Assembly: GCA_903813345.2 (NCBI GenBank)
Contig: CAIIXF020000012.1
Span: forward strand, 25,432,184 to 25,496,183
Reading direction: 5' to 3'
From: Owenia fusiformis
Taxonomy: Eukaryota > Annelida > Polychaeta > Sabellida > Oweniidae
DNA: 64,000 nt
In this document: positions 173-28,100 of the stretch, one piece after another
How the letters are laid out: every line of letters starts with the position of its first letter
Position numbering within the stretch: position 1 is the first letter of the stretch
Notes under the pieces: generated by a model
Seen by the model: only the letters and a program-made list of their open reading frames with translations
Database searches by the model: none
What the model was told of the DNA's origin: nothing
Made by a program: the position numbers and the translations under genes

Positions 173-979
173 CCTACTATCATACCAAACTAGTTCTCAC
201 TAAGTTCTCGAAAAAGGGCTTCAACTGTGTAAAAACGGACTGGACCTACTAAAAACCGTTTGGGATCTATTTACAAACTTCATCGAACGCACTCGAACGG
301 GTAGGTCCTCTAGAACTCAGACAATGCTCAAAATGTTCTCGTGGTCGTCACGTTCTACAATTAGAACGAGTGAAAACGTACTAACGACGAGCTGGACGTA
401 CTACGAACGAAACCGTCGTACTTCAATCCTACTAGGGACGTTTTAACAACGAGTTGAACTGTCTGAGGACATGTTTAGAACGAGGTAGAACTAATTGCAA
501 ACGGGTTTAAACTGATTAAGAACGTATTTAACACTGCTTATGAACGAGTTAGCAAAAATATAGCTATCACACCAAACAAGTTGCCACTGCGTTCTCCAAA
601 ACTGGTTTTAAACTGTGTGCGAACGGAATGAACGTAGCTGCAACTTTCTAAGGTCTATTTACGAACTTTATGAACGTTCTCAGACGGGAATGTGATTTTA
701 GAATTTTGAATCGATTCAAAATTCGATGGCGACCATGCCGTTCTGTAATCAGGTCATGTTGACCTTCTAGACTAAGGGACGCGTTCTACTACGTTGCACA
801 CCGACGTGGTGCGACCTGAACGAACTGCGAACGAGATGGACGTATTGAAGACTGTTTAAGAACGAAGAAGCTAATTATTTCAGACATATTTCCCGACCAC
901 AGTCAGATTGAGCCCGTTTTACGATGTTTTCGTAGGACTGGCAAGAACGGGTAAGAACTAGTTTGGTGTGATAGGGGGG
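173..979 (+). mobile_element. Non-autonomous TIR element rich in AACG words, copy 1
   Basis: The left end reads CCCTACTATCATACCAAACT and the right end is its complement (AGTTTGGTGTGATAGGGGGG), followed by more shared sequence (GTTCTC/GAAC). The flanking trinucleotide TTA is present on both sides (170-172 and 980-982), which fits a 3-bp target duplication as in PIF/Harbinger-type transposition (inference). The inside has no usable ORF and is crowded with GAACG/CGTTC/ACGTAC words. A second copy lies in the opposite orientation at 60,297-61,096; the two share the ends and an internal TATCACACCAAAC block near 565. Confidence 0.7.
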
Positions 980-1224
980 TTAATGATACAAAATACATTG
1001 CATTTTTAAATCTATTTTGATCCAAACTAAACATAAATAATAAATAAGTGACATATTTTTGCAGACTTACAAGTTGTACATGAAGGTTTGACTTGGGCTG
1101 TGATTTTAGGGTGTTTGCGGTTTTGAGTTTCCCTTTCTTGATGAAACTTATACTAGATTAGTATTCTGTAGTTTTTTCTTGCCTGGTCTTCCTGATTAAA
1201 TGTGCATGATTTTCAATAATACTT

Positions 1225-3147
1225 ATCATCACAGGCTGGTATCGAAAAATTTGTCCGCTGTGACGGAGCGTGTTATGTTGCATAGAAACACTAGGAAATC
1301 CACACAATTTATTTTTTTACTCATATGTTTTACTATATCAAAGAAAATTACTGACTCCATGCAATGAATATATCATTTGCGGGTAACTTTAACTTCTGTT
1401 TGAAGTCCAACAATGCTAAGAGTAAAAGCTATTGAAAACGGCGTCGGAGTATCATACTCCAAAATGTACCATTGCTTTTATTTCTTTTTAATGGTACAAT
1501 GTAGCGACACGATAATATTTACATATGTTTTCAGCATAACTCTGAAGGTATTAATGAGATCTTTATGTATTAGGTATTTTTAATTTTTTTGATAAAAAAT
1601 AATAATTAGATTTTTTGTCCGCTTTGACGGAGCAGTTTCAAAACTGAAATACGTTAAGAGTATAGATTTATAATATATCTCTTTACAACTACACGTTAGA
1701 GGAGCGAGCGTGTCAAATCTCGTACAGTATTCTGAAAAATGAAACGTAATAAAAGTACACAATTCAAATTCTGAGATATATATACGACCACTCTTAAGCA
1801 TCTTTTCTCAGTTTGTACTGCAATCCAACTTATGCATGGGAACTCATGAAAATGATAGTCAACTTCATTTAAGTATAGGGTATTTTCCTTTCGTAGTGCC
1901 TTCTGTGGATCAATCGGCCTGACATGGTCATTTTGTACGGTTACTTGATTATTTGAAGTAAAATGATTTGCTGAAGATGAGGCTAAATACATATGATGGT
2001 ATGGAATGTGGATTGTTCTACCCTCTTTAGTCGTTCCAAAAGGTAAGTTGAGTGTATCTTGAAATACTAAAATGCAAAATTTGATAATAAGATCGTTCTT
2101 TATTTGAATAAGAGTTATGGCTATCTGATGCAACTACAGTAAAACATGTGTACAGTGAACACATATGGAGCCCAAAAATGTGTTCCCAGTTGGTAGATGT
2201 TCACTCCATACAGGCAATTTCATACAGAAGTCAGAGGAATATTTGATAAGAAGAGGTATTCACGAGATAAAGATATTCATTGAGACAGGTTTTACAGTGC
2301 AGCACGTTTACCTAGACTTTTTTTTTATAATTTTAGTCTATGCAAAACGATGAATTTCATGAATTCCAAATAAATACAAATTAAATCTGTATTGGGATCA
2401 TCTTATATACAGTAATATTATGTGGTAAAAGGTTATACATCTGTCGGAATCCAGGATGTCTGTGCGCTATTTCGAATAAATTCATATTAGCCCTATTTAT
2501 ACTACACGTGACATTTCAAGACGTCTTGGCGAAAACGTATTAGAAATATTATGTTGAGTTTTTACCATGTTGATTTCAGTACAAACCTCCGTTGTCGTTT
2601 TTATATCTCAGATTTACATTACCCCAGATCTCCAAGAGACTACTTGTCATAATTTAGGAAAGTGATTTGTGACGTTCTCTTCTGAGGGTACTCTTAAAAT
2701 ATATAATTTGCATCTTAAATTCTTAACATAGTTCACAGTTAAAGCTGCTCCGTCACAGCTGAAAAAAAATGTAAACATTATTTTTTTATAAAAAATATTA
2801 AAAATACCCAATACATCAAGATATCATTAATACCTTCAGAGTTATGCTGAAAACACATGTAAATATTATCGTATCACTATATTGTACCATTAAAAAGAAA
2901 TGGTACATTTTTGAGTATGATACCCCGGCGCCGTTTTCAATAGCTTTTACTCTTAGCGTTGTTGGACTTCAAACAAAAGTTAAAGTTACGCGCAAATGAT
3001 ATACCCATTGCATGGAGTAAGAAATTTTCTTTGGAATAGCGAAACATATGAGTAAAAAAATAAATTGTCTGGGTTTCTTAGTGTTTCTATGCAAAATAGC
3101 ACGCTCCGTCACAGCGGACAAATTTTTTGATACCTGCCTGTGATCAT
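1225..3147. mobile_element. 1.9-kb foldback element with ~420-bp inverted arms
   Basis: Positions about 1225-1645 and 2740-3147 are near-complete reverse complements. Each arm carries TTTGTCCGCTGTGACGGAGC at its outer end and a related TTTGTCCGCTTTGACGGAGC or its complement at its inner end. The outermost bases are ATCATCACAGGCTGGTATCG on the left and the complement of ATGATCACAGGCAGGTATCA on the right. ATACT occurs next to both ends and may be a target duplication. The 1.1-kb centre has short open frames with no recognisable protein. Confidence 0.7.
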
Positions 3148-3234
3148 ACTCTTCTACTCTTAACATACATCTTCCATAACAAGTCTTTTTACATCACAAA
3201 ATCATGGTGTCTGACTGTTGGTATAAAGTAATGG

Positions 3235-3412
3235 TTTTCGGTACAATGCGCATCGGTATATTGGTTTTCAGTACAATGCGCATCGGTATATTGGTTTTCG
3301 GTACAATGCGCGTCGGTATATTGGTTTTCGGTACAATGCGTGTCGGTATATTGGTTTTCGGTGCAATGCGCGTCGGTATAATGAGTTTCGGTATAATGTG
3401 TGTCGGTACAAT
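3235..3412. repeat. 30-bp minisatellite
   Basis: About six copies of a 30-bp unit (TTTTCGGTACAATGCGCGTC plus GGTATATTGG). Because 30 is divisible by three, both strands stay open and produce decapeptide-repeat ORFs. These are not supported as genes. Confidence 0.85.
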
Positions 3413-3419
3413 GAGGTGA

Positions 3420-4430
3420 TCCCAAAATTGGTTTGAAATATTTCATAATAATATTCATTTCTTAGACTCCAGCGCAAGTGGGAATGAATACTCAGTTCAG
3501 ATTTTTCATGCTTGGAGAAAGAAGATGTGATATCCCAGAATACCTTCTACCAATCAAAATGATGTATACATGAGATCTGTGCATCAATAACTTTGGGGTT
3601 ACTTCAAATTTTGCTTACACAAGTAGATAATGAAAATCGATTTATACATGTACACGGCCTTATGTATTCTTATAGAAATCGAACTCTGTAAAGGGATTTG
3701 AAATTTTATACAGACTTTGGGCCAAATTATGTTTTCATTAAAACTGAGCCGTGCTTATGTAACTAATGTTTTTAATAACATCACCCTTTAATTGGACATT
3801 AGCCTTTAAATGCTTTTGAGGCAAGCCAGTCAACTTAATTGTTCAGTCAAATAGCACACAGTTAATTCAAGGCAATTAAGCCAATTATCTTTTCTTTCCT
3901 ACAGCTACATATATGTAGTGGCACTCTTGATAGGGCAGGCGAAGTGATTATATGGTTGTTTTTACTGGCTGCATAAAGGTACATTTTAGAATTATTTATA
4001 AGATTCACATTTTTTTGGTATCACACATGTCACACTTAGATTAGAATACCCTTTGTAAACTTGATGCAAATTACCTCAAATCATCCAAGAATACTTGGCT
4101 GAATCTATGAGTAGACAAGTTTTTCAGGTCAGGGTTTGTAATCATTTGTGTAGGGTGGACAGAGGTTTTCATCTAGGCACAAGTCATCATCTGGGCGCGA
4201 AGAAAGCATACTCAAAGGTCCAACAAGGCACAGCGCCTGGTGAAAAGTGCCTGTGGAGATGATAGCATATCAAGATACAAGCATTTTACCATGAGCTTTT
4301 CAACCTATTGTTATTATCACATGATTCCGCTGACATTGATCCAATATAATGTAACAGTAAATCTAGCACAGAGTTTTAAGCTATTTATGTTTAACTTCAA
4401 TACCAAAAATCCTCCAATGACTCCCTGTTA
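3420..4430. other. Gene-free stretch, nothing recognised
   Basis: AT-rich DNA with short random ORFs only. I see no repeat unit, splice-bounded exon or RNA gene. Confidence 0.5.
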
Positions 4431-5760
4431 AAAGATCGCCTACTTTTAAATTTGTCTCGCTTATATTTCAAAATGGCCGTAATTTTTATCGCACAAAATT
4501 CATTTTCGGATCATTTGCTAGGTATATAAATGATTTCTGTTGTCTTGCATATTAAAACCCATGTGACTGTAAAAAGTAGTTTTATGAAATAATTTAATAA
4601 AAAAAGATTGGCAAAAATTGATGTCCATTTTATATTTTATTGTCTGCCATTTTTGTCTATAAAGTCTTGTTTACATTAAAAACCAAACCTCTGTCGATAT
4701 TTTTATGATTTTCGGTAACATTTGTTAATTACGATTATAAGAAAACCCCCTATGGCTCCTGTTTCAAAAGCTCACTCAATTTAAAAATGGCTGCCATTTT
4801 TCATCTTGAGAAATTTTTGTCTGTCAACAATCACCCTACTAAGCAGGTATCCAGAATCTGTACCTTCTTCCCCCTGCTATAACCAATTTGGAAGCACTGG
4901 AAGTGATCTAATTATGCGCAATGACTTATACAGGATTTCTGTTGCAGTGTTGCGACAGCCAATCAGATTGCGAGTTCTTAATTAGCATTGCTAATTGCTT
5001 ATCGCAGGGGGTAAAAAGAAAGAATATATTCTGGATTTTGAAGCCCTGTGATCAGATGATGATCAACACTATGCAGAATGTTTTAAAACCTCTGTTGATG
5101 GGATTCCCATTTAAAGTTATTTTTGTTCACCATCTATACAGAAGACATGTTATTGTCAGCAATTTTGGGATTTTTAGTCATAAAATCTTGTCTTTGAAGT
5201 TGAAACATTTCAACTGATTAGTTTTGGGGCATTTTGTTTAGACCCAGGGTACTGTTCATTATGGGTATACCTCTCTAATTATGTGCTTAAAACGCTAATT
5301 TTTTTTTATATCACCGAATGAAGTTTGAGAGGCATATAGGAAAGTCGCCTTCCATTCGTCCATCAATTTGTCCGTCCATCCGTTTGTCTGTCCATCCGTT
5401 TGTCCTGGCGATAACTCAAATACCAGTTGATGGATTTGATTGAAATTTTATAAGCTTTTGCTTTATGGAAGTAGAACCTCTGTCGGTAAGGGATTTTCAA
5501 TATGGCCTCTCAATTCAAATGGCTGCCATTTTTCGAAAAAATGTAATCTTTAATAACTCAAATACCAGTTCACGGATTTGGTTCAAGTTTTATATGATGA
5601 TGCCTAGGGACAAAGGAGCTATGCTGAAGAAGAGATATTCTAAATATCAAAATTGGGGCCATTTTTGTAAAAGAACTGAATCTTTGATAACTCAAATACC
5701 ATTGAATTGATTATCTTCAAAGGGCCATGTGCAGTATGGCAAGTGATTTTGGGAAGCTGT
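4431..5760. repeat. Dispersed repeats with aaaatggcYgccattttt and gtccgtcc motifs
   Basis: Several diverged copies of one repeat type, marked by 'TCAAATACC', 'AAATGGCTGCCATTTTTC' and the run 'GTCCGTCCATCCGTTTGTCT' near 5,370-5,400. Related copies occur near 6,290, 15,950-16,300, 22,120-22,600 and 61,760-62,060. The ORFs at 4,921-5,217 and 5,465-5,710 fall in this material and match no family I know. Confidence 0.55.
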
Positions 5761-8260
5761 ATTTCTGGTCAAGGGTATATTTCGATATTTCGATACTTTA
5801 TATATTAAAACAATATCTTAACTTCAACAAAGCTGCATAAAATGAAATAAATCTCATTTGGATTATAAAGATTTGTAATGGATTAGTAACCCACCCCCTC
5901 ACTATCCAATAATGTTAATAATAATCATTGCTGCATATTCTCTTTATTTAGTCATGATTGTTGCCTAATATATGCCAATGTTAATATGGTTCGTCAATGT
6001 AACAACAGCTCCATGTCACACGTTCGTCAACGTAACATTGATCTTATGTCAACGTAGCAAAAGCGAGGGACTAAATATGTGAATTGCATCTTCGTTAATA
6101 TATCAAACATAGAACCACCTGCACATTCTCAAACATCTTTTTTAACTTTAAGCCAAATTATTGTCCACAACTTGACTTATAAATCATGTAAAATCGAGAA
6201 ATAAAAATATATCGAAAAACGAAGCCCAGAAGTTCTTCCATCTTGTTACGCTTACGTATTTTAGCGTAACTAGGTCAGTACCAGTGTATATAGAAAACCC
6301 CGCTAGGACTCCTGATTCAAAAGCTCTCCTACCTGTATTTTAAAAATGGCCACCATTTTTGTCTCGTGAAATTCACTTTTGGCCCATTTCCACTCTATAC
6401 AGACTGTTCTATACAAAAACAAGCGGAGCGGATATCATATGTGCAAGGTGCGGATATTTAAGGTTATTTTTGAATTAAATTTTGTGATATTTCACGACTA
6501 AGGCATGTTGGGTACTCAATAATATTTATACATGTGAACAGGTTCCCTAATAAAAAGGAAATTTTGTAAATGCCTGACATATACGGCAATGGTGTGCAAA
6601 GACCGAATGAAATGCATTTGCTTGTTTCGCCGTTCGGATTTTTACCATATCAGCATTTCATAAAAAGCGAGGTGTAAATATTATGGAACAAATGTGTGAT
6701 ATATATAGTGCTGATACAAAATAAACTAAATAGAGGGCTCCCACCAAAATGAATTTGCCTACATTCCCTTGAGACTCTTATCTAATATACAGAATGCACA
6801 AATAAAACAAAAGTTTTGCTATAGGTAAAAAGTTATCTTAAAAGTTATTTTACCTGTTAATTCTGTCATTGGTCCTCCATTTTTGCGGAAGTTACACTGA
6901 AACGCAAACTCCATGGAACGAAATGAAATCGCTAGAAAAAACCATGGCACACATCGTGCGAAAAAGCAAAGTTTCAACAAATCAGATTATTTTATTATTT
7001 TGAGCACATGAATTATTTGCTTCGGAGCACTTACCATAAAAGCTAACCACAATAAACAAACCTGGCGGAGATTAGCCTTACTTCATTTTAGCGAAATTTC
7101 AGCTCAAACTCGTGACAAATGCATTATGAATACGCTGGTATGAAGCCTTGAACACTCATTTTGGTAAATATGATTTAGAGTGTATACTTTTCTGCAGTTT
7201 GTGGGAGTTTTGGACATTAAATGTTAAAATTAAGAAAATATGCCAACTATACGACTTATCAATTAATTTGTTGCAGAACTGTACACATATTTCGGACCAA
7301 ATGCGTGACATAAATGGCAATGGCGTATAAAGACAGAACCAAATGCTTTCTGATTTTTATTGTATCGGCGTTTGATGAAAAATGATTTTTAAAAATATCA
7401 ACATAATACGTGATTTGAGTGATATTTGATCATACACACTAAATTGATGCGTGATTTCTATTTTTTCAGCAAATGCATGACAATCACTCCTAATGCGTTA
7501 GGGTTGACAGGACTGTGGTGATCAAGATCAATACAAATTATATTAAGCCATTATACCATTATAAAAGGCATTAATGTAATTTGAAATCTTTTTGAAGAGT
7601 ATGCATGCAGTTTGTATTTTCTGGTAAAATAGGCATGCAGTTTGTGTTTTATAACTTTTTACTTTTTTCTCTCATGATCATCTGACCTAATTCGAAATTG
7701 TACATGTACGTGAGAACTTGGTTGAGATTTACCTATGAAACAAAATCAAAGTATTTTCTGTATCTGTGAAAAGTTTGACATCAGCTAATGTGTCGGTTAT
7801 CAAAAAACTGATGACAATTTTTTGCTTAAATTCTAAAACCTACGTTCATCTGGACATAGTTTCTGCTATCACATGGTAGAATCAAATAATCTACACCGAA
7901 TTGACATATGAAACTATAAAACAATGCAGAATTTATGTCTTAAAATTATGCTTGAAAACATGGACTCCAAGTTCTTTAATGCAATGTTGACAGGCATGCA
8001 GTTTGTTAGGTTTTCAAACTGCTTGCATAGTATGCACGCAGTTTGGATACGGCGCCCTGATTACTATTTGTTGAAAAAGCTGATAATGCTACATTTCTCA
8101 CTTTTTGTGTAGTGGTTGCAAAAGAATTTTCTCACTTTTGTGTGTATACTCATGAGTGGACAGCAGGCTATTTCAGGTCATTGCATTTGAAAGCATCTTA
8201 GTAAAGTATTATGCTTCTCAGAGCTGTACTGACTTTTCTTTTTTGTATGTACTTTCAGAT
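5761..8260. other. Gene-free stretch with weak long-period duplications
   Basis: A segment near 6,560-6,670 ('GGCAATGGTGTGCAAAGACC') recurs in degraded form near 7,300-7,390 ('GGCAATGGCGTATAAAGACA'), so part of this region is an old duplication. 'ATGCAGTTTGT' recurs near 7,604, 7,633 and 7,995. No gene is supported. Confidence 0.4.
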
Positions 8261-13625: not shown

Positions 13626-15939
13626 TAATATATAATAGCAATGAGCTATATAAAATATGTGTACAATAAACCTAATTTATTGAATACTGTACTGTTTACT
13701 CCTATTGAACATCTGTATTACAACTGTTCAAACATATTCTGACTTGCTTGTCAATGTCTTAATGTGAATTAAAGAATTTTACAAAAACCTTTTCATATTC
13801 CTTTATAAATAAAATTGGTCAGTTTTCTATTGTTATTTTATTGAAGACCATAAAATAAAGAAATGACTGGCAAATCCACTATCCAATAGTATTGAAGACT
13901 CGATCTGTCCAGAGTTGGCATTACATTTTTCAATATAAATATTTTTCAGTTTTAAAGGAAATTTAACCAATGTTGGAATAGAATTAAGAATTGAATTATT
14001 GATTGATACAATTGCTATATTGAAACATAACTTGGTGAACACCTCTTTAGCATGTCTAATAGACACTACTTCAAGAAACATTTTGCATAGACTTGTGTAG
14101 AGTCTCATCTCTTAGTAAACATTTGCCTACAATAACACTATTTGTGGGTCAACACGGTAGTAAATTTTATACATGTTTTACTGAAAATGTATCGCAGGGC
14201 AGATTACTGTTCAAAATATGGAAACCCCAGCCAGAAATCCCTTAATTTCATGATTCTCCATTGAACATATTCAAAAGTTTAGTTTCTAAATAGCTAAATT
14301 TAGCTGATATTATAGATGTCGTCCTAGTTTCTCTTTGATTTTCTTGGGCCAGATCTTTATTCACTTCAATGCTCCTACTACCCCACCTCGATCACGCATG
14401 CGCGAGAATTTTGGCTTTTAACCAGGTCACTTTTGAGTATATTGACTGCTTTATTGGTCAACAAGTTGATACATTTGGTGTAATAGTAATAGTGTGAAAG
14501 TATATTTTTGAACCACTAAATGTAATTATCCAGATGAGAGTAGAAATAATCTTGATTTACGTCATTAAAACTCACAATTCAGTCAAACCGATGTCATATT
14601 TTGAATCTACATGTAAAATTACATTTAGAAATGTGGTTTTGAAGAGTTTATCAACTTTGAAAATTTAATTTTCTTTGAGAAATGTGACTTCTAGGTCGGG
14701 GAGATTCCCCATAGACCCCATGTTGTAAAACCACAAAAAGTGAAATATCTTTTCTTGTGTTGGGCAGATATTTTCTTTTATTGGACATATTTTAATTTGT
14801 ATAACTATCGGATACATAAGGGTAATATGAAAAGTGAACCACTAAAACTGATGCATATTCAAGTTTAAGGGAATTTTGTAATACCCTGCCATGTTAATTC
14901 CCCCGAATCGGCCACCTGGTGGCGAAACTGGTAACTACCTAGTCGCATCTGAGTAATTGATCTAGTCTTTATTTTCGGACGAGTACAATTACAACGTACA
15001 TTTGCCAATCATTATTTCTAATGCGTTTGATATCCTAATCGAGTGGCACATGGACCTGAATTTGATATTCAAATGTAGAATTTAATTAATAATAGAACGA
15101 ATGATAAGTTTCATTGGAGTACATTGATGCACATATGCATGCAAGAGGCGTCATTAGAATATTTCAAATGCTGTATATGGAAATGCTTGCCAAAAACTGC
15201 AAAATAGCTATATATGCATGGTGTTACGCGAAATATGGCATATATTTATGGTTGTGCGGTATTTGTGGTACTTGTGGTACTGGTGAATATGCCATACTCA
15301 CGTGCGGTATATGGCATATTCCGCATGCGTATGGCAACATGTGATACATTGATTTCAGTGATAACCAGATATCTCACTGCGAAATATGCCATATACAGCA
15401 GATGAAAACGTGATACAGAAAGCCTCAGTTTGATTTGTCGAAAGAATCAATTCTAAATGTAAAACTTTGCTGGATTGCCAAATAGAAAACATAGAATAGT
15501 CATAGTCATATTTCCAAAATTCAAACCATCACATTTCTGCAATTCCTTCCACCACAACTTGCTTTTTAGAAAATAAGTACAGATATTTGGAAATAAATAT
15601 TATGGTTTTAAAAGAGAAACCTGCATTTTCTCTTTTAGTTTTGCACCCTGTTCAATATAGTTAGCGGTTCAAGTACAAAAAATAAATGAATTTTGGGTTG
15701 ATTAAGCACGTTTATTACATGTTAATAATGTTTGAAATGTGTTAATCGTGATTTCCAATTCAACAATGTATAAATACTCGTTATTTTTTTAAAGTTTTGA
15801 GTTGGTTATAAAAGTCACTTATAAGCTTCACGAACGTAGGTTCGTTTATTATTGTGTCATAATGGTTCACTTGAAGCGTGTTTTTGAATGTAACACATAC
15901 ACAAAACACCATTAAAAAATTCTTCTTCAATTGTATTAG
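13626..15939. other. Gene-free stretch
   Basis: AT-rich with no exon or repeat family recognised. Near 15,230-15,410 'GAATATGCCATA'-like words recur on both strands and could form small palindromes. Confidence 0.4.
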
Positions 15940-16302
15940 TTATCCCATCGAACGAAGTTCGGAAGGATATAGGGAACGCCTCCGTTCGTCCGTCCGTCTG
16001 TCCATCCGTCCGGGCAATAACTCAAATACATGAAATACCGTTGGCCCGATTTTGTTCATATTTTGTACACATATACGCAATTGGGGTAGAAGTAGAAGTT
16101 CTGCTCGATTTTCAAAGTGGCCGCTCATTTAAAAATGGCTGCCTTTTTGTACCGATTTTACAGTAATTAAGGTACTGCATATAAAACTGTAATAGCAATA
16201 TGTTTTAAATATAAAAAGTTATATAGGACATTGATTAAGCTAGAAATGTAAATACAGAAGAAATACATGGCAGCCATCTTGAAAAATGGTCGCCTTTGCA
16301 CG
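15940..16302. repeat. Left part of a dispersed repeat split by the 16.3-22.1 kb insertion
   Basis: Contains CGTCCGTCCGTCTGTCCATC, 'AACTCAAATAC' and 'AAAAATGGCTGCCTTTTTG'. It stops at '...CGTCTTTTTACG', and the matching continuation ('TGTAACTTGAAAAGTAGTGG') resumes at about 22,124. The two halves therefore mark the insertion boundaries of the block between them. Confidence 0.55.
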
Positions 16303-16317
16303 TCTTTTTACGAAATT

Positions 16318-16608
16318 CTTAAAATTTAAAGTAATTTTAGTTTTTATTAGTAAACCATACTTACCTAATATTGCCACTATGTGCTAACATCCACCATTGA
16401 ATCTATCTATGGCCAACTTCCCGGGAATTTCTTGAGCATATTACACTGTGCACCCCCGCACAAATGCCCGGATATTCCTCAATTATTCCGCTATAACAAT
16501 TATGAACATTCTGCTGTAAGCGGAGGAGGAGGGAGGGACATATTTGTAGTGGCAATATTAGGTAAGTATGGTTTACTAATAAAAACTAAAATTACTTTAA
16601 ATTTTAAG
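16318..16608. mobile_element. MITE-like unit with perfect 62-bp terminal inverted repeats
   Basis: The left arm 16,318-16,379 and right arm 16,547-16,608 are exact reverse complements over 62 bp (outer end CTTAAAATTTAAAGTAATTT, inner end TAATATTGCCACTA). The loop holds about 125 bp (AACATCCACC...GCCCGGATATTCCTC) also present, inverted, at about 21,955-22,080. It abuts the left terminal repeat of the large hairpin-rich element, so it is either a deletion derivative of it or part of the same insertion. Confidence 0.75.
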
Positions 16609-16609
16609 A

Positions 16610-19600
16610 TTTTACTACGCAAACCTTAACTACTTACACTAATATTGCCACTATGTGCTGAATCCCAGCCAAGTAGGCGGTGGGTTAAACAGCAGAAAGA
16701 CCACGGGAATAGAATAAATTTGCAACAAACTACAAATTGATCAACCCTACAACTTTAGGTAACCCAACTTTACATCCTAAAGCCTTCGGGAATAAGGAAC
16801 TTAGTAACCAAATACAAGTTCTGGGGTAAAATGCTTAAACTGTGTTAAACACTTAACAAAACTAATTATACAGATTCACTATGCTAAAAAACTACTGAGT
16901 ATTATTTCATATATGACTCAATTGGCCACTATGATAAAAAACGGACGTCTATCTATGGCGGGGTAATTCAACCACCAAAGGTCAACAACGAACTTATACC
17001 ACAGTACAAATTCTGACATTCTGATTGGCCATAAAGTTAAGAAAAATGTCAGAATATCTTCTTGCATAGTCCTAGACTTACATACATGACTTGGAAGTAA
17101 ATTAAGCTGCCCATTGTGCCTGCTTTAAACATATCTTCCACTCGACTTCTAGAAACAAAGATTGAAGAAGTAGTTACTGGTCTTGACATAACGTTTTCGA
17201 CCCTTCTTTAACAGCCACATGTGTATACTTCTGTGTACCTTGTACATGTATAGATAACAGCTAATAATTGCTTGATCCAAAGATCTAAAGGAATTTTATT
17301 GAAGTTCCTTAAATGTATCTGGTTCTTCAAATCAATGCAAACTTTTCGTTCTCTCTTTTGAGTAAAGGTGAGACAAAGTACTACATCGGTTACCATATGT
17401 TGGACTCTTTATGATATTCGAACTTTGAACACCAGTTGTTTAAATATTCTTGGGATTGTGATAACTCCGAAATCCCAAATTACATTAAATATTAAACATC
17501 TGGTATAAGTGCTTCTGCAAAGCATTGTAACCCTTAAAGGCTAAGCTGTGTCTGAATGATAAACTACGTAGAGATTCATCATTTACTCATTGCCATTAGG
17601 ATCACATGTTCAATCATTGAAGAACCCATGTACACCCTCCTTATTAGTCGAGTATGCTTGGTTGTTTACAATTCAACAATAAAACTTGCATATTACCGAA
17701 CACTTTCTGAAAAAATCGGTTAATTAGATAGTCATGTATCCAAACATGTCTAAATGATACCTGCTGAATACAATCCTAGACCTTGGTACAAACCCAAGAA
17801 AGGGATTATAATGGTTAAGAGTGAATAAGTTCAACTGATTCACAACACTAACTCAAAACCTTAAAGAATCATTCGACTCTAGAAGAAGTTATCAGGACAA
17901 GATCATTTAGGAACTGGTTCTGAAAACCCTCCTCTGATATATGCTGACATCAGAAAATTTACTAGACTAGTAAAGCATAATCTTGTACGATATCATGATA
18001 GAAATATCATTAGAGAGTTCGATTTACAACAATTACAGGTAAATAAGACGACTACCAAGTAATTCAGTAGCATTCTAGTCTTATCGCATATATAGTGTGA
18101 TAAAAACTCTGCGTCTCTTGGTAAGAAACACCTGCAATTTATCCACAAAGTTGCTGGGGAAGATATACGTTTCATGTATCTTCTAATATTGCTGTTTAGT
18201 CATAAACAAACATGTATACTATCACTAAAATATGAGTAAATAAACTCATTAGAATGCAAACTCACATTAATAAGACTATGATGTTCTAAACATCAATAAT
18301 CTTTGAATCAGAAACAACAAACAATTCAAGTGAGACGTCTTGATGTCTAATAGTTAATAGTATTACACATCAATTGAACTGTAGTGTCAGATGTCACAAT
18401 ATTGCTTTCTTGCAATATAGGTGTTAAAAACCCCATCACGCTTCTCATCCTTAAAATCTACAGGTGTTTCACATTCTCTTGTTGAAAATGAACCCTGATT
18501 TTGAAGGAAGTCTAGCTGTCAAGCAACGTGGATATGACAACTACGTTATGATTTGCATCTTTGAACACAAAAATGTTCTTGGGCAACTTTCATCTACCTA
18601 GTAAGTGTTCAAGAACCGTTCCCATATAACATGTATAAATATAACGAGAATTATTCTCGCATTGAAATCCTCTGTTAAACACCTCAAGAGGTTGACCACT
18701 ATCTGCCTCAAATGTGAATGGTACAGAGGAAAATAAAGCAACGTTAAAAGCCTTATTCAATTGCCAAATAGAATAGGCAAACAGCACTAAACTACAGTAG
18801 CTAATAGGAATCGAACCGATGACTATGTGGTTCCTGAGAATAACATTCCTGTGACAGGGCACCAAAATGCCTTGTTAATTACTTGGAATCTTGACATCAT
18901 AAACCTTAGATGTATATTTGTCCTATTAAGGGGGTAGTGACATTACTAGTCTCAGGGCAGAACGATTCCTTAACTCAGTGTTCTACTCAGAACAACATCT
19001 TAAAAAATGTACTGTCTCAAAAATGAAACTATTTGATAAAGTATAGATGGAGTTGAAGATAATTCGTATAGAAATATCTCCAAAACCACACGGAAAACTG
19101 AGATTTCCGTTAAAGATCATATGTATAACAGTCAGCAGAGGATGTCTGTGATTCTTAAAATCATGAGACTGTTACAAAAATAACTTGGTCAAAATTTGAT
19201 CACGACAAGACATATGTGTGAAAAAATTGCCACTGTTAATATTAATTGACCAATGCGTAAAAAGGTAAGTCTGAATCTCTTGTTTGGAAGAGCTCATGTC
19301 AAGACAAACGAAACCATGTCTATAACAAAGAGTACACTAGCTCCCGAGTATATAGTACTTCAGTACCACTAAATGATGTGTTGAGGTTCTACCACCAAGG
19401 AAACATGGTAACAATGATTCCATGGTGAAAAAACATAAACCTCTAAACAACATGTAAGATCTCTCAAATAGTGATTGAACTGAACACTGATGATACCATG
19501 ACTTAAAGTGAATGTGTGGCTATTTAAGACACAAAAGTTTACACAGAAGCACGGCACGACTGTGAACCTGTTGATGATGATACTGTCATGACTGAGACTG

Positions 19601-22122
19601 GCTCAGTAAAACACTGATTATACTTAAACCGTGTTTAAAAGTCACTTTGACCATACTCTGAGCAACCTGAACAAGGTCAAAATAAACAAATATTCATTCT
19701 GTGTGTGATGTGGTAGCAAACAGGCCAATGGTCTGGAATACAGATATAGGGACTTGTTATAAGTAAGTATAACTACTTCCCCTTATCACAAAATAAAACC
19801 TTTGGAATAACACCCAAGGTTGTAGGGGAAAGCACAGAATTTGATTTACAGTCTCTTGAACTGACTTACAAGAGATCTGAAAAGTAATCTTAGACTTCAA
19901 AAATCAACTTTTGACTTCAAAAGCTGCCAAGGCCAAGTAAAATAAAGGAAACAAAACCTTCACGGAGGTGATGTTTTAGACATAACCTTACTTTATCTGG
20001 CAAACTGAAAACCGCCAAATGTTTAAGTTTTCAAAAAACCTCGACTGTAATCTTAATTCCTCAAACAATTAACTCTGAGTTGAATGCTTTATGAGAAGCA
20101 TCTGGAGAAAGTAACCTATGTCGAAGGTACTTCCGCCAACTCAATTCTGAATGTTAATATTCCAGGAATAGAGTCTAAACTGTCTAAATAGGAGTATTCA
20201 GAAATGATTCCTGAGAAAAAAAGATTTCAGTCAGAAATGACAAGTTCATGACATTGTCATTTGTCAACGCTTACAACACTTCTTATATGAATAAGTACTT
20301 GTGTTGTTCAGTTGTTGACTAATATGGCTAGAAGGATAGGCCTAGTCTAGAGACTCAAAAACTAAAACAATCTAAGTCACCTTCTACTTCTTTGTTGAAG
20401 AGACTGAATCAACCAATAACAGGATGATTGTGAGCATCCATGAATCGTTTTCTTCAGCATATATTAATAGCAACATGTACAATTACTTGGAGAAAACAGA
20501 AACGCTCAATCAGAGACCATAACTTATAGGTCTCTGATTCGAAAAGATTTTACATCTACTTGGAAGATGAGTAGGCTAAAAAAGCTATATTGGTCTTTTC
20601 TGTGAAGAAGATGACGACTTCACAGTAGACCTACTGTTAATCTTACAGTTACTCTTGTTAATCTTTAGCCTATCCTCTTTCTGAACAGTAGACAAACAAC
20701 TCAGTCCAGAAATAACTGAACCAAATGGATAAGTGACAAACTTATCCTGCTGCGCAGAACTAGTATAAAACTGAATGGACTAAATAAACCAATTATACAG
20801 CTGTGGTCAGCATACGTGTTCTACAGTGTATGTATGCAACATTACATGAATACTACACCAGATTTTACAACATACGGTGTTATTTTCTAAATACATTTAA
20901 ATGTATGTGAACCAAGTGTCTTCATCTGAACATCTTATTGTGATCACGCTACTGTAAGATGAAGAAATATCTTCTTCATCCTAGGATCATGCAGTCCATG
21001 CATGACACATGTCAAATCCTGGAAGACTAATTTAACTGGTGTAGTTATTTCTTCATGTTTATTACATAATTCATATCGGGACTGGAGTCCTTTTATAAAC
21101 TGTGCATGAAGAAAAGAGGTGATAACTTCTTATGAACACGTATGTGTTTTCATTGTGGACTTACAACCAAAAAACACATGCACAGTAAAGAAGCCATTTC
21201 GTCTGCGTTCTCCTGAACACGTATGTGTTTTCATTGTGGACTGACAACCAAAAACACCTCTGACTGTCTGAAGCCATCTTCAGATATAGATATTTTTCAA
21301 ATTTCTCATATTCATCTGGAACTGAACACGTTTATGTGATGAATACAGAGACGAAAAATTGAGAGCTGTGTAAACTTGAACAGATAATGTTTTCTTATGG
21401 ACTGACAACCAAAAGAAACACCTCAGTGTAAGGCAAGGTACTGCAAGGCATAAACACAGTGTCTACCTTCTTCGGACTTCCTTACTTTCTTATCTGGATT
21501 GAAAACCTCTCACATGTAACATAACACAGAGAAGAACATGTACTATTTCGTTCTCTGTACATGATGTGTTCTGATGGTCTTATGACCCCAGAGAAATTGT
21601 CATTTAATATGACAAATTGTCTGGAAAAAAGGTCAATTGACACTAGAGACCTTTTCCATATGCTTACTATAATCTCATGTCGGGACTGAAGACCCTATAT
21701 GGAGCAAGCAAAGATAAAACGAACGAGGTAAGATCATCGACATTTTATAGATCAGATGTTTTCTTTGTGGACTAACAACCCAAAGAAAAAACCTTGAAAA
21801 CTTGTCTTATAGTTCCATATGATCTATTTTCCTCGTCCTCTTACTTTCATTTGTAACTGATGAACCTGTAGAACAACTAACTTCCCAGTTCCGTGTCCAT
21901 AGTCACAAGTTATTTGTAAATTTATTGCGATTCTAAAATTTCCGTCTTTACAGAAGGAAAATGGCGGAATAAATTGAGGAATATCCGGGCATTTGTGCGG
22001 GGGTGCACAGTGTAATATGCTCAAGAAATTCCCGGGAAGTTGGCCATAGATAGATTCAATGGTGGATGTTAGCACATAGTGGCAATATTAGTGTAAGTAG
22101 TTAAGGTTTGCGTAGTAAAATG
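16610..22122. mobile_element. 5.5-kb TIR-bounded, gene-less, hairpin-array element
   Basis: The ends are a 51-bp inverted repeat, ATTTTACTACGCAAACCTTA...CACTATGTGCT at 16,610-16,660 and its complement at about 22,072-22,122. Between them I find no credible ORF. The interior is a run of short hairpins, for example 17,432-17,503 (three nested stem blocks), 18,399-18,418, 19,383-19,443, 19,852-19,875, 20,273-20,307, 20,509-20,538 (perfect 10-bp stem), 20,572-20,672 (an outer stem TAGGCTAAA/TTTAGCCTA enclosing two perfect inner hairpins), 20,727-20,747 (8 bp) and 20,919-20,965. Ordinary AT-rich DNA does not show self-complementarity at this density. No transposase is present, so mobility would need help in trans. 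The function is unknown. Confidence 0.75.
21078..21792. repeat. ~80-bp periodic hairpins with a shared apex motif
   Basis: Apex motifs start at 21,078 (GGGACTGGAGTCC), 21,157 (GGACTTACAACC), 21,238 (GGACTGACAACC), 21,318 (weak), 21,399 (GGACTGACAACC), 21,496 (GGATTGAAAACC), 21,576 (GGTCTTATGACC), 21,682 (GGGACTGAAGACCC) and 21,769 (GGACTAACAACC). The spacings are 79, 81, 80, 81, 97, 80, 106 and 87. Flanking stems differ between units but still pair: ATGTGTTTT/AAAACACAT, GTGTTTT/AAAACAC, TTTCTT/AAGAAA, TTCTTTG/CAAAGAA. The region is part of the hairpin-array element. Confidence 0.7.
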
Positions 22123-22600
22123 CTGTAACTTGAAAAGTAGTGGAGCGATTTTGTTCATATTTGGTATGTGAATACTTTAAGCATGGCCCAATGTCTAATG
22201 ACATCTTGGGTAGTAGGCGGCCATTTTGAAAAATGGCCACCATTTTTATGCGTGTTATTTTACATTTTTTACTAGAACTCAAAGTAGTATCTAGCGATTT
22301 TGTTCATATTTGATATGTGGATACTTTAAGCATGGCCCAATGTCTAATGACATCTTGGGTAGTAGGCGGCCATTTTGAAAAATGGCCACCATTTTTATGC
22401 GTGTTATTTTACATTTTTTACTATCGATTTTGTTCATATTAATATGTGAATACTATAAGCATGGCACACTGTCTAATGACACTTTGGCTAGTAGGCGGCC
22501 ATTTTGAATAATGGCCATCATTTCTTACGTTTTTTACTCGTAACTTGAAAAGTAGTGGAGCGATTTCAAATGGTGGCCTTTATTGTGGGTATTTTTTATG
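22123..22600. repeat. ~150-bp tandem repeat, about three copies
   Basis: Units start with 'GCGATTTTGTTCATATT' (22,150, 22,288 and 22,423) and contain 'GAATACTTTAAGCATGGCCC', 'GTAGGCGGCCATTTTGAAAA' and 'ATGGCCACCATTTTTATGCG'. The family is the same dispersed repeat as 15,940-16,302. Confidence 0.8.
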
Positions 22601-24944: not shown

Positions 24945-25490
24945 CCCCTATATATTGGCCAAGGGATAATCCCAATATCCTGAACCGCGACTATAGGATA
25001 ATATGTTTATCCCATACCAATCTTGGTCATCTGGTTCACATTGTTAAATCGTGGAAACATTTTAGAATATTCATGTCCAGTTTTGTTTTCTTGGCCATGG
25101 GCGGATTTTCATGTTCTCTCAAATATTCCCATATTTATTTTCTCGAATTTTTTATTGATTAAGTGGATGCTCTTTCCCTTTTTTTAACTATCAAACAGAC
25201 CCTGATTGTCTGTGTTTTCTCAATTGCCGTTTACAGTCATTCCGCGAACGTTACAAATTATGAACAAATATGCAAGCGGCGATTTTGACGTAGCGGGCAG
25301 ATATACTATATCTGCCCGCTTGGAGCGGGACGTAAAGCTTTATCCCATGGTTGCAAGGAGGATATAGATCGAATATCACATGATGATATATTTGATATGT
25401 GGATCAAGATATCATATTTTAGCAAACAATTTACAAACCATCGAATATCACTTTTAAACTATCGAATATCACATCTTAAATAGAGGATAT

Positions 25491-25620
25491 CCTATGATTT
25501 ATGAGTGATATGATTTTTATCCACGAATGGATATGATATCTGCACGAGTGAGCGTAGCGAGAGAGTGTAGATATCAACATCCATGAGTGGATTAAAATCA
25601 TATCACGAGTAAATCATAGG
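25491..25620. repeat. 130-bp palindrome with a GAGTGAGCGTAGCGAG centre
   Basis: CCTATGATTTATGAGTGATA at the left pairs with TATCACGAGTAAATCATAGG at the right. The centre reads 'ACGAGTGAGCGTAGCGAGAGAGTG'-like, and the same kind of centre occurs in the palindrome at 25,921-26,053. Confidence 0.85.
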
Positions 25621-25920
25621 ATGTTCTTTATATTCCATAGTTAAAGTCATCATCAGAATCGTCGGGAATTAAGTGATTTGAAACAAATTTTCCAAACGAT
25701 ACGGCGATATTGACACTTAGCCTCGTTTTGAGTCTGAAGTAGCGAAAAGCCATAAACCATGGCATACGGCGCCGTATGTCATGGCTAAAACACCGTATGC
25801 TATGGTTAAGTGAAAATTTGCCAAAAATATCATATTTTACCACTGATTTCAAAAATACCGTTTTTATTTTGACATGTTATCCTATGGATACCATGCTAAC
25901 TATGGAATAATATAGCAATA

Positions 25921-26053
25921 TCCTATGGCTCTGAAAAAATATCACTTATATCCATGAGTGGATATTGATATCTTCGCGAGTGAGCGCAGCGAATGAGTGA
26001 AGATACTGATATCCATGCGTGGATATAAGTGATTTTTTTGAAAAACCATAGGA
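25921..26053. repeat. 133-bp palindrome
   Basis: TCCTATGG at the left end pairs with CCATAGGA at the right. The arms continue through AAAAAATATCACTTATATCC and its complement, and the centre reads GCGAGTGAGCGCAGCGAATG. Confidence 0.85.
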
Positions 26054-26302
26054 TTGTCCGTTTATCCCATTGGGAATTATTATCCAGCGAACATTGAATA
26101 GTCAAATAAATTGCAATGGAAATTCCATTTCGTCTGACATTTTGATTGCGATAATTCAACGAACGTCATATACGTGACGTAACAGAGTGGTTTGTATTTA
26201 ATGCGAAAGCCCTAAAAACAAGATCCCAAAAAATAAAAATATATAATAAATATATAAACAATCGTTTTGCTGAATTAATAAAAACATTTAAAAAATCAAA
26301 AC

Positions 26303-26382
26303 CATCGAATATCACTTTTGAAACCATCGAATATCACCTTTCAAAAAGTGATATTCGATGGTTTCAAAAGTGATATTCGATG
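26303..26382. repeat. 80-bp palindrome of CATCGAATATCAC units
   Basis: Two direct CATCGAATATCAC units are followed by two inverted copies (GTGATATTCGATG). The same word also occurs singly near 25,370 and 25,440-25,470. Confidence 0.85.
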
Positions 26383-26484
26383 ATTTGGGAATTGTTTGCT
26401 AAAATATGATATCTTCATCCACGTATCAATTATATCTTCACGTGATATTCGATCTATATCCCTGTAACCATGGGATAAATAAGG

Positions 26485-26623
26485 GTTATGTACTGGGAGG
26501 TTTTGGATATGCGGTTTTTCCAGAGGGAGATATGCATATCTACCTGAGGGACCGTAGGGACAGAAAGTAGATGTGCATATCTCACGAGGGATGAACCCAA
26601 TATCCAAACCGACCGTACATAAC
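26485..26623. repeat. 139-bp palindrome
   Basis: GTTATGTACTGGGAGGTTTT at the left pairs imperfectly with AAACCGACCGTACATAAC at the right. It is a diverged relative of 24,804-24,944. Confidence 0.75.
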
Positions 26624-26639
26624 TGCTTTATCCTATACC

Positions 26640-28100
26640 AAGTAGAGTTTTCAGTAGTACAAGGTGTAAAAAATAAACAAATCATTTATATGCAAAGTCA
26701 TTTTATTGCATTTCCACTTTTTTGGAAGCGGGAAGATACGCTCCGAAGCGGGAAGATATGCACCGAAGCGGGAGATATGACGGGAGATATGGAGGTTCTT
26801 GATATGGAAACCTCAAAATCAGGATACGGGATATATCTTACCAACTTATCTCCCTAAAACCCTACTTGGCATAGGATAAATCAAGATAATTTCTACTCGC
26901 ATCTAGTCTATTCTTACCTTCTTCTAAGGCCACTGTATCGTGGCCTTCCAGTAAAGATATATTCCTGCATGAACAACTGGTCATGTCGTAATCATAAAAT
27001 TTGAAATCATATGTCCGCCATTTTTCCACATCACAATTTGAATTGCGAGTTTTGGTCTTATTACCTCACCAAAAATTCCAAAACACACATAAAGTGATCA
27101 GTGTATTAGTTCACATCTTCTGGATTGCTAACTTAGAATTTACAGCCAGTTACTAATGTCAGACGTTAACGACATTTCGTCCAGTTTTCGAACATATTTT
27201 TAAAAATATTCAATAAATTTATGACACGACGGCCAGCTTTTTTCAAATGGAGTTCACAGTATTCCAGATGAAGTCCCCTCTAGCCAAGTATTGGCTAGAG
27301 ACTCGAGTAGGTCTATTCCACATGTTTGGGAAAAGTGTACAGGAAAATCTCCATGTTCAATTGATGTATGATCAATATATACGAATCGAATGTATTCTCG
27401 TGTGCATTACAATATCCACATTGAAACATTTTTGGCCTGCAATGGACGTATAATGAATTAGAATATGAGGCCGTGTTATCATTCTAATGTAAAGTCATGG
27501 TATTTACTGTGGTATTGCAGTATTGGGTTGCAAGTTAATATCAGATTCAATGCAAATTAGTCATCTAATATCAGATGCGCGATCAGTCCAATAATCTAAT
27601 TTCAGGTCATCAGTTCGATATCTAGCACTTGTTCTAACGACACGGTATTACTAGGCTATCATATTATAAATACACACACATATAAAACAATCAAACTGGT
27701 ACACGATATAAGCACGACTGCTCTTTCAATTTAGTATAAATGTTGATAAACTTACCCGGAAGTCAAGACATACACGTTTAGACGATGCTATTTTCAGTTC
27801 AGTGTAAGAGTAAATGCCCGGATATCGAGGCTTTTTCGTGTAAAGTTTTAACCAAGCATCTAAAATCGGGTTATATTGCGTGTAGAATTTATCGATATCA
27901 GGGCCGCTACATGCCAGTGATGTTTAATCACAACATGTACATAAACAGGGTCATCATGTGGTATATCATTCAAGTTTTATACAGATTCAACTAACACACT
28001 TTGATAAATCATGAAATTAAGCCACTTTTCCAAGATTTTAGCATGTAGCCCAAATTAATAGCTGAATAAAAGATGGCAGCGCTAGATTTCATTGATTTTT
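26640..28100. other. Gene-free stretch; contains a dispersed repeat at ~27,630-28,090
   Basis: From about 27,630 the sequence ('TTCTAACGACACGGTATTAC', 'ATAAGCACGACTGCTCTTTC', 'GCCCGGATATCGAGGC') is the uninterrupted relative of a repeat found in two halves at about 49,220-49,336 and 51,590-51,930. No gene is supported. Confidence 0.5.

Follow-up and report, generated by a model that had tools for sequence, protein, structure and literature searches.

A gene-less, hairpin-rich repeat in the genome of Owenia fusiformis is very probably a non-autonomous DIRS-type retrotransposon

The closest described systems to the element considered here are the DIRS1-like retrotransposons, which have end repeats, an internal complementary region (ICR), and no visible target duplication (PMC3266345; PMC8969392), and in which a methyltransferase-like region follows the reverse transcriptase (RT)/RNase H (PMC3266345). 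The replication mechanism proposed for DIRS elements is not fully proven (PMC5633606). Retroelement derivatives without genes are already known. They include non-autonomous tyrosine-recombinase elements such as SIRE, the short gene-less form of trypanosome VIPER made of ca. 0.4 kb of VIPER ends (PMC6681497), and the long terminal repeat (LTR) elements called large retrotransposon derivatives (LARDs), in which a large gene-less core with claimed folded RNA lies between retrotransposon ends and dependence on a helper is assumed (PMC7215508). We analyzed a 64,000-nucleotide stretch of the genome of the annelid Owenia fusiformis (the window; assembly GCA_903813345.2, contig CAIIXF020000012.1, positions 25,432,184 to 25,496,183, forward strand). 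It contains a gene-less 5.8-kb element, which an earlier note, made from the letters of the window, had placed at positions 16,610-22,122 of the window and described as built from serial hairpins, an interior that its author knew from no described transposon class. We conclude that the element is very probably a non-autonomous DIRS-type tyrosine-recombinase retrotransposon that moves in DIRS mode.

Comparison of copies of the element with their differing flanks, together with a core search and a joined-ends test, placed the whole element at ca. 16,317-22,120, with the minus strand as the sense strand. The left edge had to be moved from 16,610, since the copy of the end repeat found there forms half of the ICR and does not mark the end of the element. 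On the sense strand, a 5' inverted terminal repeat (21,961-22,120, minus strand, sense start TTTTACTACGC) is followed by a long interior, the ICR (16,547-16,659, minus strand), and a 3' inverted terminal repeat with an outer divergent part (16,317-16,494, minus strand). The inverted terminal repeats noticed from the letters alone are indeed present: 21,961-22,099 and 16,358-16,494 form an inverted match of 98% over 139 query bases. The ICR lies near the 3' end (sense positions 5,460-5,576 of the 5,810 bases cut) and reads as a circle junction, in which the 3' end meets the 5' end, in reverse complement; 113 of 113 bases are identical, with one gap of 6 terminal/target bases. Visual inspection of the junctions at 16 loci that have both ends revealed no target duplication. 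The same was true when the insertion site in the window was compared with seven empty copies of the repeat that hosts it, in which case the crossover falls in an A/T run. Junctions of the element are A/T-rich, and the position of the crossover is not exact. DIRS1-like elements, which are of similar size, likewise have inverted terminal repeats with a divergent outer and a conserved inner part and ICRs near the 3' end, overlapping at a short circular junction; target duplications are not visible in them either (PMC3266345). The agreement with this published layout contradicts the view that no described transposon class applies.

The same view is also contradicted by a relative with homologous ends and coding capacity in the same genome. 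The genome was searched with the pattern of the 25-base ICR-junction core, allowing up to three mismatches and using the reversed pattern as a control. Exact matches were found at 24 places, with four more at two mismatches and three at three mismatches (three with the reversed control). The four two-mismatch loci, L020-L023, turned out to be relatives of the element; their ends are 72-79% identical to it at the ICR side, and L022 is 64% identical at the other side. L022 has 5.88 kb between its ends, the same repeats and layout as the element, and sense frames of 576, 757, and 990 amino acids (aa), with RVT_1 recognized in the one of 757 aa (E = 2.5e-21). An RT search revealed nine further loci, all with long frames in DIRS order, and self-comparison revealed inverted repeats and an ICR in seven of them (partial in L030 and L031). 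In an alignment of the recombinase part of five DIRS loci, residues R, HxxR, W, and Y, which we take to be catalytic, are invariant; PF00589 was matched weakly, below its cut-off, in L025, L027, and L028. Since the gag, RT/RNase H, and recombinase frames are absent from the element itself, it is classed as a non-autonomous derivative rather than as an autonomous DIRS.

Several observations weigh against this identification or limit it. The RT_RNaseH match of L022 scores 19.3 bits, below the Pfam cut-off of 24.8. Its first frame is split by a stop (576 aa, then 101 aa) and has no Pfam match, so that the label "gag" rests on position. Pfam does not recognize the recombinase of L022, nor that of L024, and L020, L021, and L023 are broken or interrupted. 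The ends of the relatives found are only 64-79% like those of the element, so that these relatives are at most candidate helpers. The element is known from genome sequence alone.

Other classes fit less well. Inverted ends, the lack of genes, and many near-identical copies would be expected of a cut-and-paste DNA transposon derivative, i.e., a large miniature inverted-repeat transposable element, but the absence of target duplication at the 16 loci with both ends, an ICR that fits a circle junction, and a relative of the same layout with an RT frame make this origin highly improbable; the rejection is based on these features, transposases not having been searched for. Helitrons have a 5' TC, a 3' CTRR end, and no terminal inverted repeats. 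The plus-strand start of the element, TC, fits, but its end is GTAGTAAAA and its inverted repeats are long. Classification as a LARD was rejected because that class needs direct long terminal repeats, and the ends of the element are inverted.

Comparison with L022 revealed what the element has kept. Its 5' part (21,664-22,120, minus strand, no open frame) is homologous to L022 across the leader and the beginning of its first frame; sense positions 3-459 align to L022 positions 1-459 at 64% over 482 columns (ca. 457 nt). Its 3' part (16,318-17,183, minus strand, no open frame) is homologous to the end of the recombinase frame, the 3' leader, the ICR, and the inverted terminal repeat of L022, with sense positions 4,940-5,805 aligning to L022 positions 5,046-5,881 at 72% over 890 columns (866 nt). 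Between them lies a non-coding, hairpin-rich core of ca. 4.48 kb (17,184-21,663, minus strand) that appears, from these alignments, to replace the ca. 4.59-kb gag-pol-YR (tyrosine recombinase) region of L022 at nearly equal length. The lack of open reading frames reported in the earlier note was borne out: the longest stop-to-stop frame inside the element is 94 aa, and when four DIRS loci supplied their gag-position, pol, and YR frames as tblastn queries, the best E against the element was 0.088. No Rfam match was obtained in the window at gathering thresholds.

The core could instead be a very decayed gag-pol-YR region, as its length is near that of the missing part and it contains a hairpin also present in the first frame of L022. 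This hairpin (20,594-20,636, minus strand), with loop TCGTCATCTT, is 79% identical to its L022 counterpart over 43 nt (E = 4e-4), and is displaced by ca. 0.9 kb; the loop is constant, and one stem pair has changed from A-T to C-G. We consider decay unlikely, since no protein-level similarity to the frames of the four DIRS loci was found, although the terminal parts can still be aligned at the DNA level (64-72%). Toward the 5' side, four dispersed copies of a segment (at 21,148, 21,229, 21,390, and 21,760; 21,148-21,790 in all, minus strand) share a constant GGTTGTNAGTCC on the sense strand, with variable flanking stem letters. A scan of ten DIRS loci did not find GGTTGTNAGTCC on their sense strands. 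A hairpin common to the four segments is only suggested, since the predicted fold differs among them; the segments are a candidate protein-binding signal.

The element is a dispersed repeat. A 1.2-kb core probe matched nothing but copies of the element, with 29 matches at ca. 26 genomic places in two subfamilies (all 28 candidates of the first look were scored; the number of places is our own tally). Three copies are split by later insertions, and at least two more places have the ends without the probed part of the core (C6:16466129 and C5:14128238). The former copy (C6:16466129-16468525) keeps both ends, and ca. 3.1 kb has apparently been deleted internally. Fifteen copies were aligned; L015, L016, L018, and L019 are outside this alignment, both ends not having been found less than 6,000 bases apart, and L009 and L033-L038 are empty sites whose rows were dropped. 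Subfamily A contains six of the aligned copies, including the one in the window, and subfamily B the other nine. Identity is 99.1-99.4% within A, 97.5-99.5% within B, and 96% between A and B. The 15 copies contain 293 private substitutions in alignment columns 400-5,700, or ca. 0.4% per copy, and are therefore young. We conclude that the element has multiplied recently to ca. 26 places. The host of the window copy, of which the seven empty copies were read, is another dispersed repeat, with GGCCATTTT inverted segments (15,934-16,316 and 22,121-22,566).

The folding of the element was compared with that of shuffled and flanking sequences. The six hairpins singled out in the earlier note all fold as described there; 20,509-20,538, for example, is a perfect 10-bp stem and 20,727-20,747 a perfect 8-bp stem. 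Between 16,700 and 21,950 there are 34 perfect stems of at least 7 bp (loop 3-30), versus 11.3 +/- 3.6 in 30 dinucleotide shuffles. The mean fold z per 120 nt (given strand/other strand, here and below) was -1.41/-1.41 over 43 tiles, and -1.32/-1.16 when the tiling was shifted by 60. The corresponding value for the flanks of eight other copies was -0.37/-0.29 (224 tiles; Mann-Whitney p = 7e-8 versus the element). On the plus strand, the core at 17,200-21,650 lies 10.3 standard deviations beyond 40 trinucleotide-preserving shuffles (7.2 for L024, 6.5 for L028, 2.0 for L025, and 1.2 for L027). The folding excess of the core is therefore real.

The excess holds against shuffles and, as fold z, against the flanks, but it does not set the element apart as unique. 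The core has 6.3 perfect stems per kb, whereas 16 ordinary flanks have 1.8-7.1 and three of the 16 exceed the core. In ten other 5.25-kb blocks of the window, 9-26 stems were counted, and in several of these blocks the count exceeds that of shuffles of the block itself. Window bins at 25, 26, 54, and 61 kb fold more strongly than the element average. Among 1-kb bins of the window, folding is strongest at 25,000-27,000 (plus-strand mean z -2.3 and -2.8), outside the element and beside AAACCATCGAATATCAC-type repeats.

Similar folding was found in coding DIRS loci. The mean z was -1.03/-1.08 for L022, -1.67/-1.43 for L024, -1.04/-1.09 for L028, -1.33/-1.24 for L031, and -1.32/-1.45 for L032; the RTs of the last four are 54-56% like that of L022. 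Weaker values were obtained for L025 (-0.37/-0.33), L026 (-0.59/-0.31), L027 (-0.10/-0.05), L029 (-0.79/-0.43), and L030 (-0.59/-0.62), whose RTs are ca. 41-42% like that of L022. An LTR-type element used for comparison gave -0.14/-0.06. The interior of L022 contains 29 stems, versus 10.4 +/- 3.2 in shuffles, and the number of stems per kb is 5.6 in L022, 5.6 in L024, and 5.3 in L028, versus 1.8-3.4 in L025, L026, L027, and L029. The difference between the hairpin-rich and the weaker loci persisted in codon-preserving shuffles of the first and YR frames at nine loci (z of -0.86 to -1.37 for L022, L024, L028, and L032, versus 0.01 to -0.74 for L025-L027, L029, and L030). Since L031 is 99.3% identical to L028, L032 is 98.3% identical to L024, and RT distance places L026 in the same family as L030, the comparison is one of three hairpin-rich families with four weaker ones. 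In the RT tree, the L031 row was read in a wrong frame (branch 2.3) and is disregarded; the tree is unrooted, so no claim is made as to which group is derived.

Thus, hairpins are not tied to the lack of genes, and serial hairpins are a habit of one DIRS lineage rather than of the gene-less element alone. The roles proposed for them in the earlier note, as a long structured RNA, a source of small RNAs, or a fold required for replication, are hypothetical. A point against reading more into this link is that the hairpin-rich coding loci are one lineage, and the association may reflect a single evolutionary event. Genome-scale ordered RNA structure in viruses is likewise a folding excess along the whole genome and not at discrete signals. 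The excess in the element is similarly spread, but it is near-equal on both strands and is also present in a non-coding core.

Further features of DIRS biology were noticed in this genome. Long frames occur in at least six further DIRS families, and PF00589 at E <= 0.01 was matched in 117 stretches genome-wide, several of them in long open frames. L020 (reverse complement) carries, at 1376-6677, an insert with identical 150-bp direct repeats and one 1,402-aa frame, apparently a very young LTR-type element.

The maintenance of single stems was assessed in the 15-copy alignment by counting shared and private changes at paired sites, in a design where subfamily A does not serve as both background and allele. 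On the plus strand, 58 fixed differences between the subfamilies fall at paired sites, and 16 of them keep the pair, as do 36 of 143 private changes. The minus-strand counts are 18 of 63 and 36 of 132. When read in reverse, on the structure of subfamily B, 18 of 51 (plus) and 17 of 52 (minus) keep the pair, and among changes shared within B, 17 of 57 and 15 of 59 do so. Paired sites were not significantly depleted of shared changes (odds ratio 0.76, p = 0.13 on the plus strand; 0.99, p = 0.93 on the minus strand). A first test on the plus strand had given an apparent effect of preserved pairing (72 shared changes keeping and 40 breaking pairs, versus 31 and 109 private ones). It was biased because subfamily A served both as background and as one allele, and the effect was gone in the unbiased repeat. 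Between the subfamilies, both bases of a predicted pair have changed in one case on the plus strand, which breaks the pair, and in no case on the minus strand. In the plus-strand columns of highest pairing probability, 6 of 439 have subfamily differences, versus 21-41 of 829-1,156 in the other bins; this bin contained 41 shared and 59 private changes in the first, biased test.

L022 revealed no excess of paired changes against L021 and L023, and cross-family codon alignments were mostly null. From L022 to L024, paired changes in pol were possibly in excess (32 versus 21.4 +/- 3.6 on the plus strand; 36 versus 25.6 +/- 3.7 on the minus strand), but the excess was gone in the reverse direction (23 versus 22.0 and 19 versus 22.8). 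L026 and L029, which are outside the hairpin-rich group, gave 28 versus 13.6 +/- 3.3 (plus) and 21 versus 13.6 (minus), and 18 versus 14.3 and 20 versus 13.8 in reverse. Their pol rows lean toward an excess (8 versus 3.9, 14 versus 8.7, 7 versus 4.5, and 14 versus 8.7), and pair conservation may exist between these two loci. We conclude that the amount of folding is a property of the lineage, and that single stems turn over without clear selection, the power of these comparisons being limited at small distances. The core is non-coding and folded beyond chance, but its pairs are not significantly preserved between subfamilies; the conservation of fold claimed for LARDs and terminal-repeat retrotransposons in miniature (PMC7215508) was not found here within the one genome tested.

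The findings are consistent with a scheme in which RNA of the element would be reverse-transcribed by proteins of coding relatives supplied in trans, the ICR would bridge the ends of the cDNA so that a circle forms, and this circle would be inserted by the tyrosine recombinase of the relatives. The core is about as long as the coding region that it would replace, as in LARDs; packaging or replication may thus be what keeps the length constant. Hairpins would accumulate as by-products of copying, when intrastrand template switching makes near-palindromes into palindromes. Because hairpins are nearly as strong on one strand as on the other and no maintenance of single stems is visible, we tentatively prefer such an origin, itself somewhat short of an even chance, over one in which each structure serves a function. 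Against it stand the lean toward the sense strand in all nine codon-shuffle rows, which would fit RNA-level selection in the coding elements, and the effect of fixed changes, which alter folding no more than random ones do (mean destabilization 0.463 versus 0.521 kcal/mol, p = 0.40).

The rival to this origin, which leaves the DIRS identity of the element untouched, is that hairpins are selected, as folded RNA or single-stranded cDNA that protects the genome of the lineage or aids its packaging, with total folding kept while single hairpins turn over. An excess found in three coding families and an unrelated gene-less core, beyond codon usage, speaks for selection, as do the sense lean just mentioned, the few subfamily differences in the most probably paired plus-strand columns, and the paired stem change in the TCGTCATCTT-loop hairpin common to L022. 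Set against these are the fixed changes, which keep pairs about as often as private ones do and destabilize as much as random ones, the lack of significant depletion of shared changes at paired sites, the absence of a paired-change excess between L022 and L021 or L023 with mostly null results across families, and the gene-less core, whose sense strand is not the stronger-folding one. Selection on total fold is thus a possibility to which we give less than even weight. The by-product origin is tentatively preferred over it.

In the open-access papers searched, we found no description of a DIRS that is both full-size and gene-less and that has inverted repeats together with an ICR (subscription journals, supplements, and Repbase were outside this scope). 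None was found in passages of PMC8498967, PMC9210276, and PMC12477816 either; the curated library of PMC12477816 mixes autonomous and non-autonomous families and could hold gene-less DIRS. The element differs from the DIRS1-like ones in lacking gag, RT/RNase H, and recombinase frames and in having an unrelated, hairpin-rich core; from SIRE, in its full size, its DIRS-type ends, and a core of unrelated sequence; and from LARDs, which are LTR elements, in its inverted repeats and ICR. It is conceivable, though we would not bet on it, that one DIRS lineage writes or keeps hairpins along the full length of its elements whatever is coded, and that the replication machinery imposes them, by RT template switching or through a requirement of the single-stranded cDNA circle. 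If so, the gene-less element would be a natural experiment that separates the hairpin property from protein coding. A gene-less, full-length, and recently multiplied DIRS points to the ends and the ICR as the sequences sufficient in cis, and the element would serve as a natural reporter of DIRS replication. As the dense hairpins of the lineage are independent of coding, their cause becomes testable.

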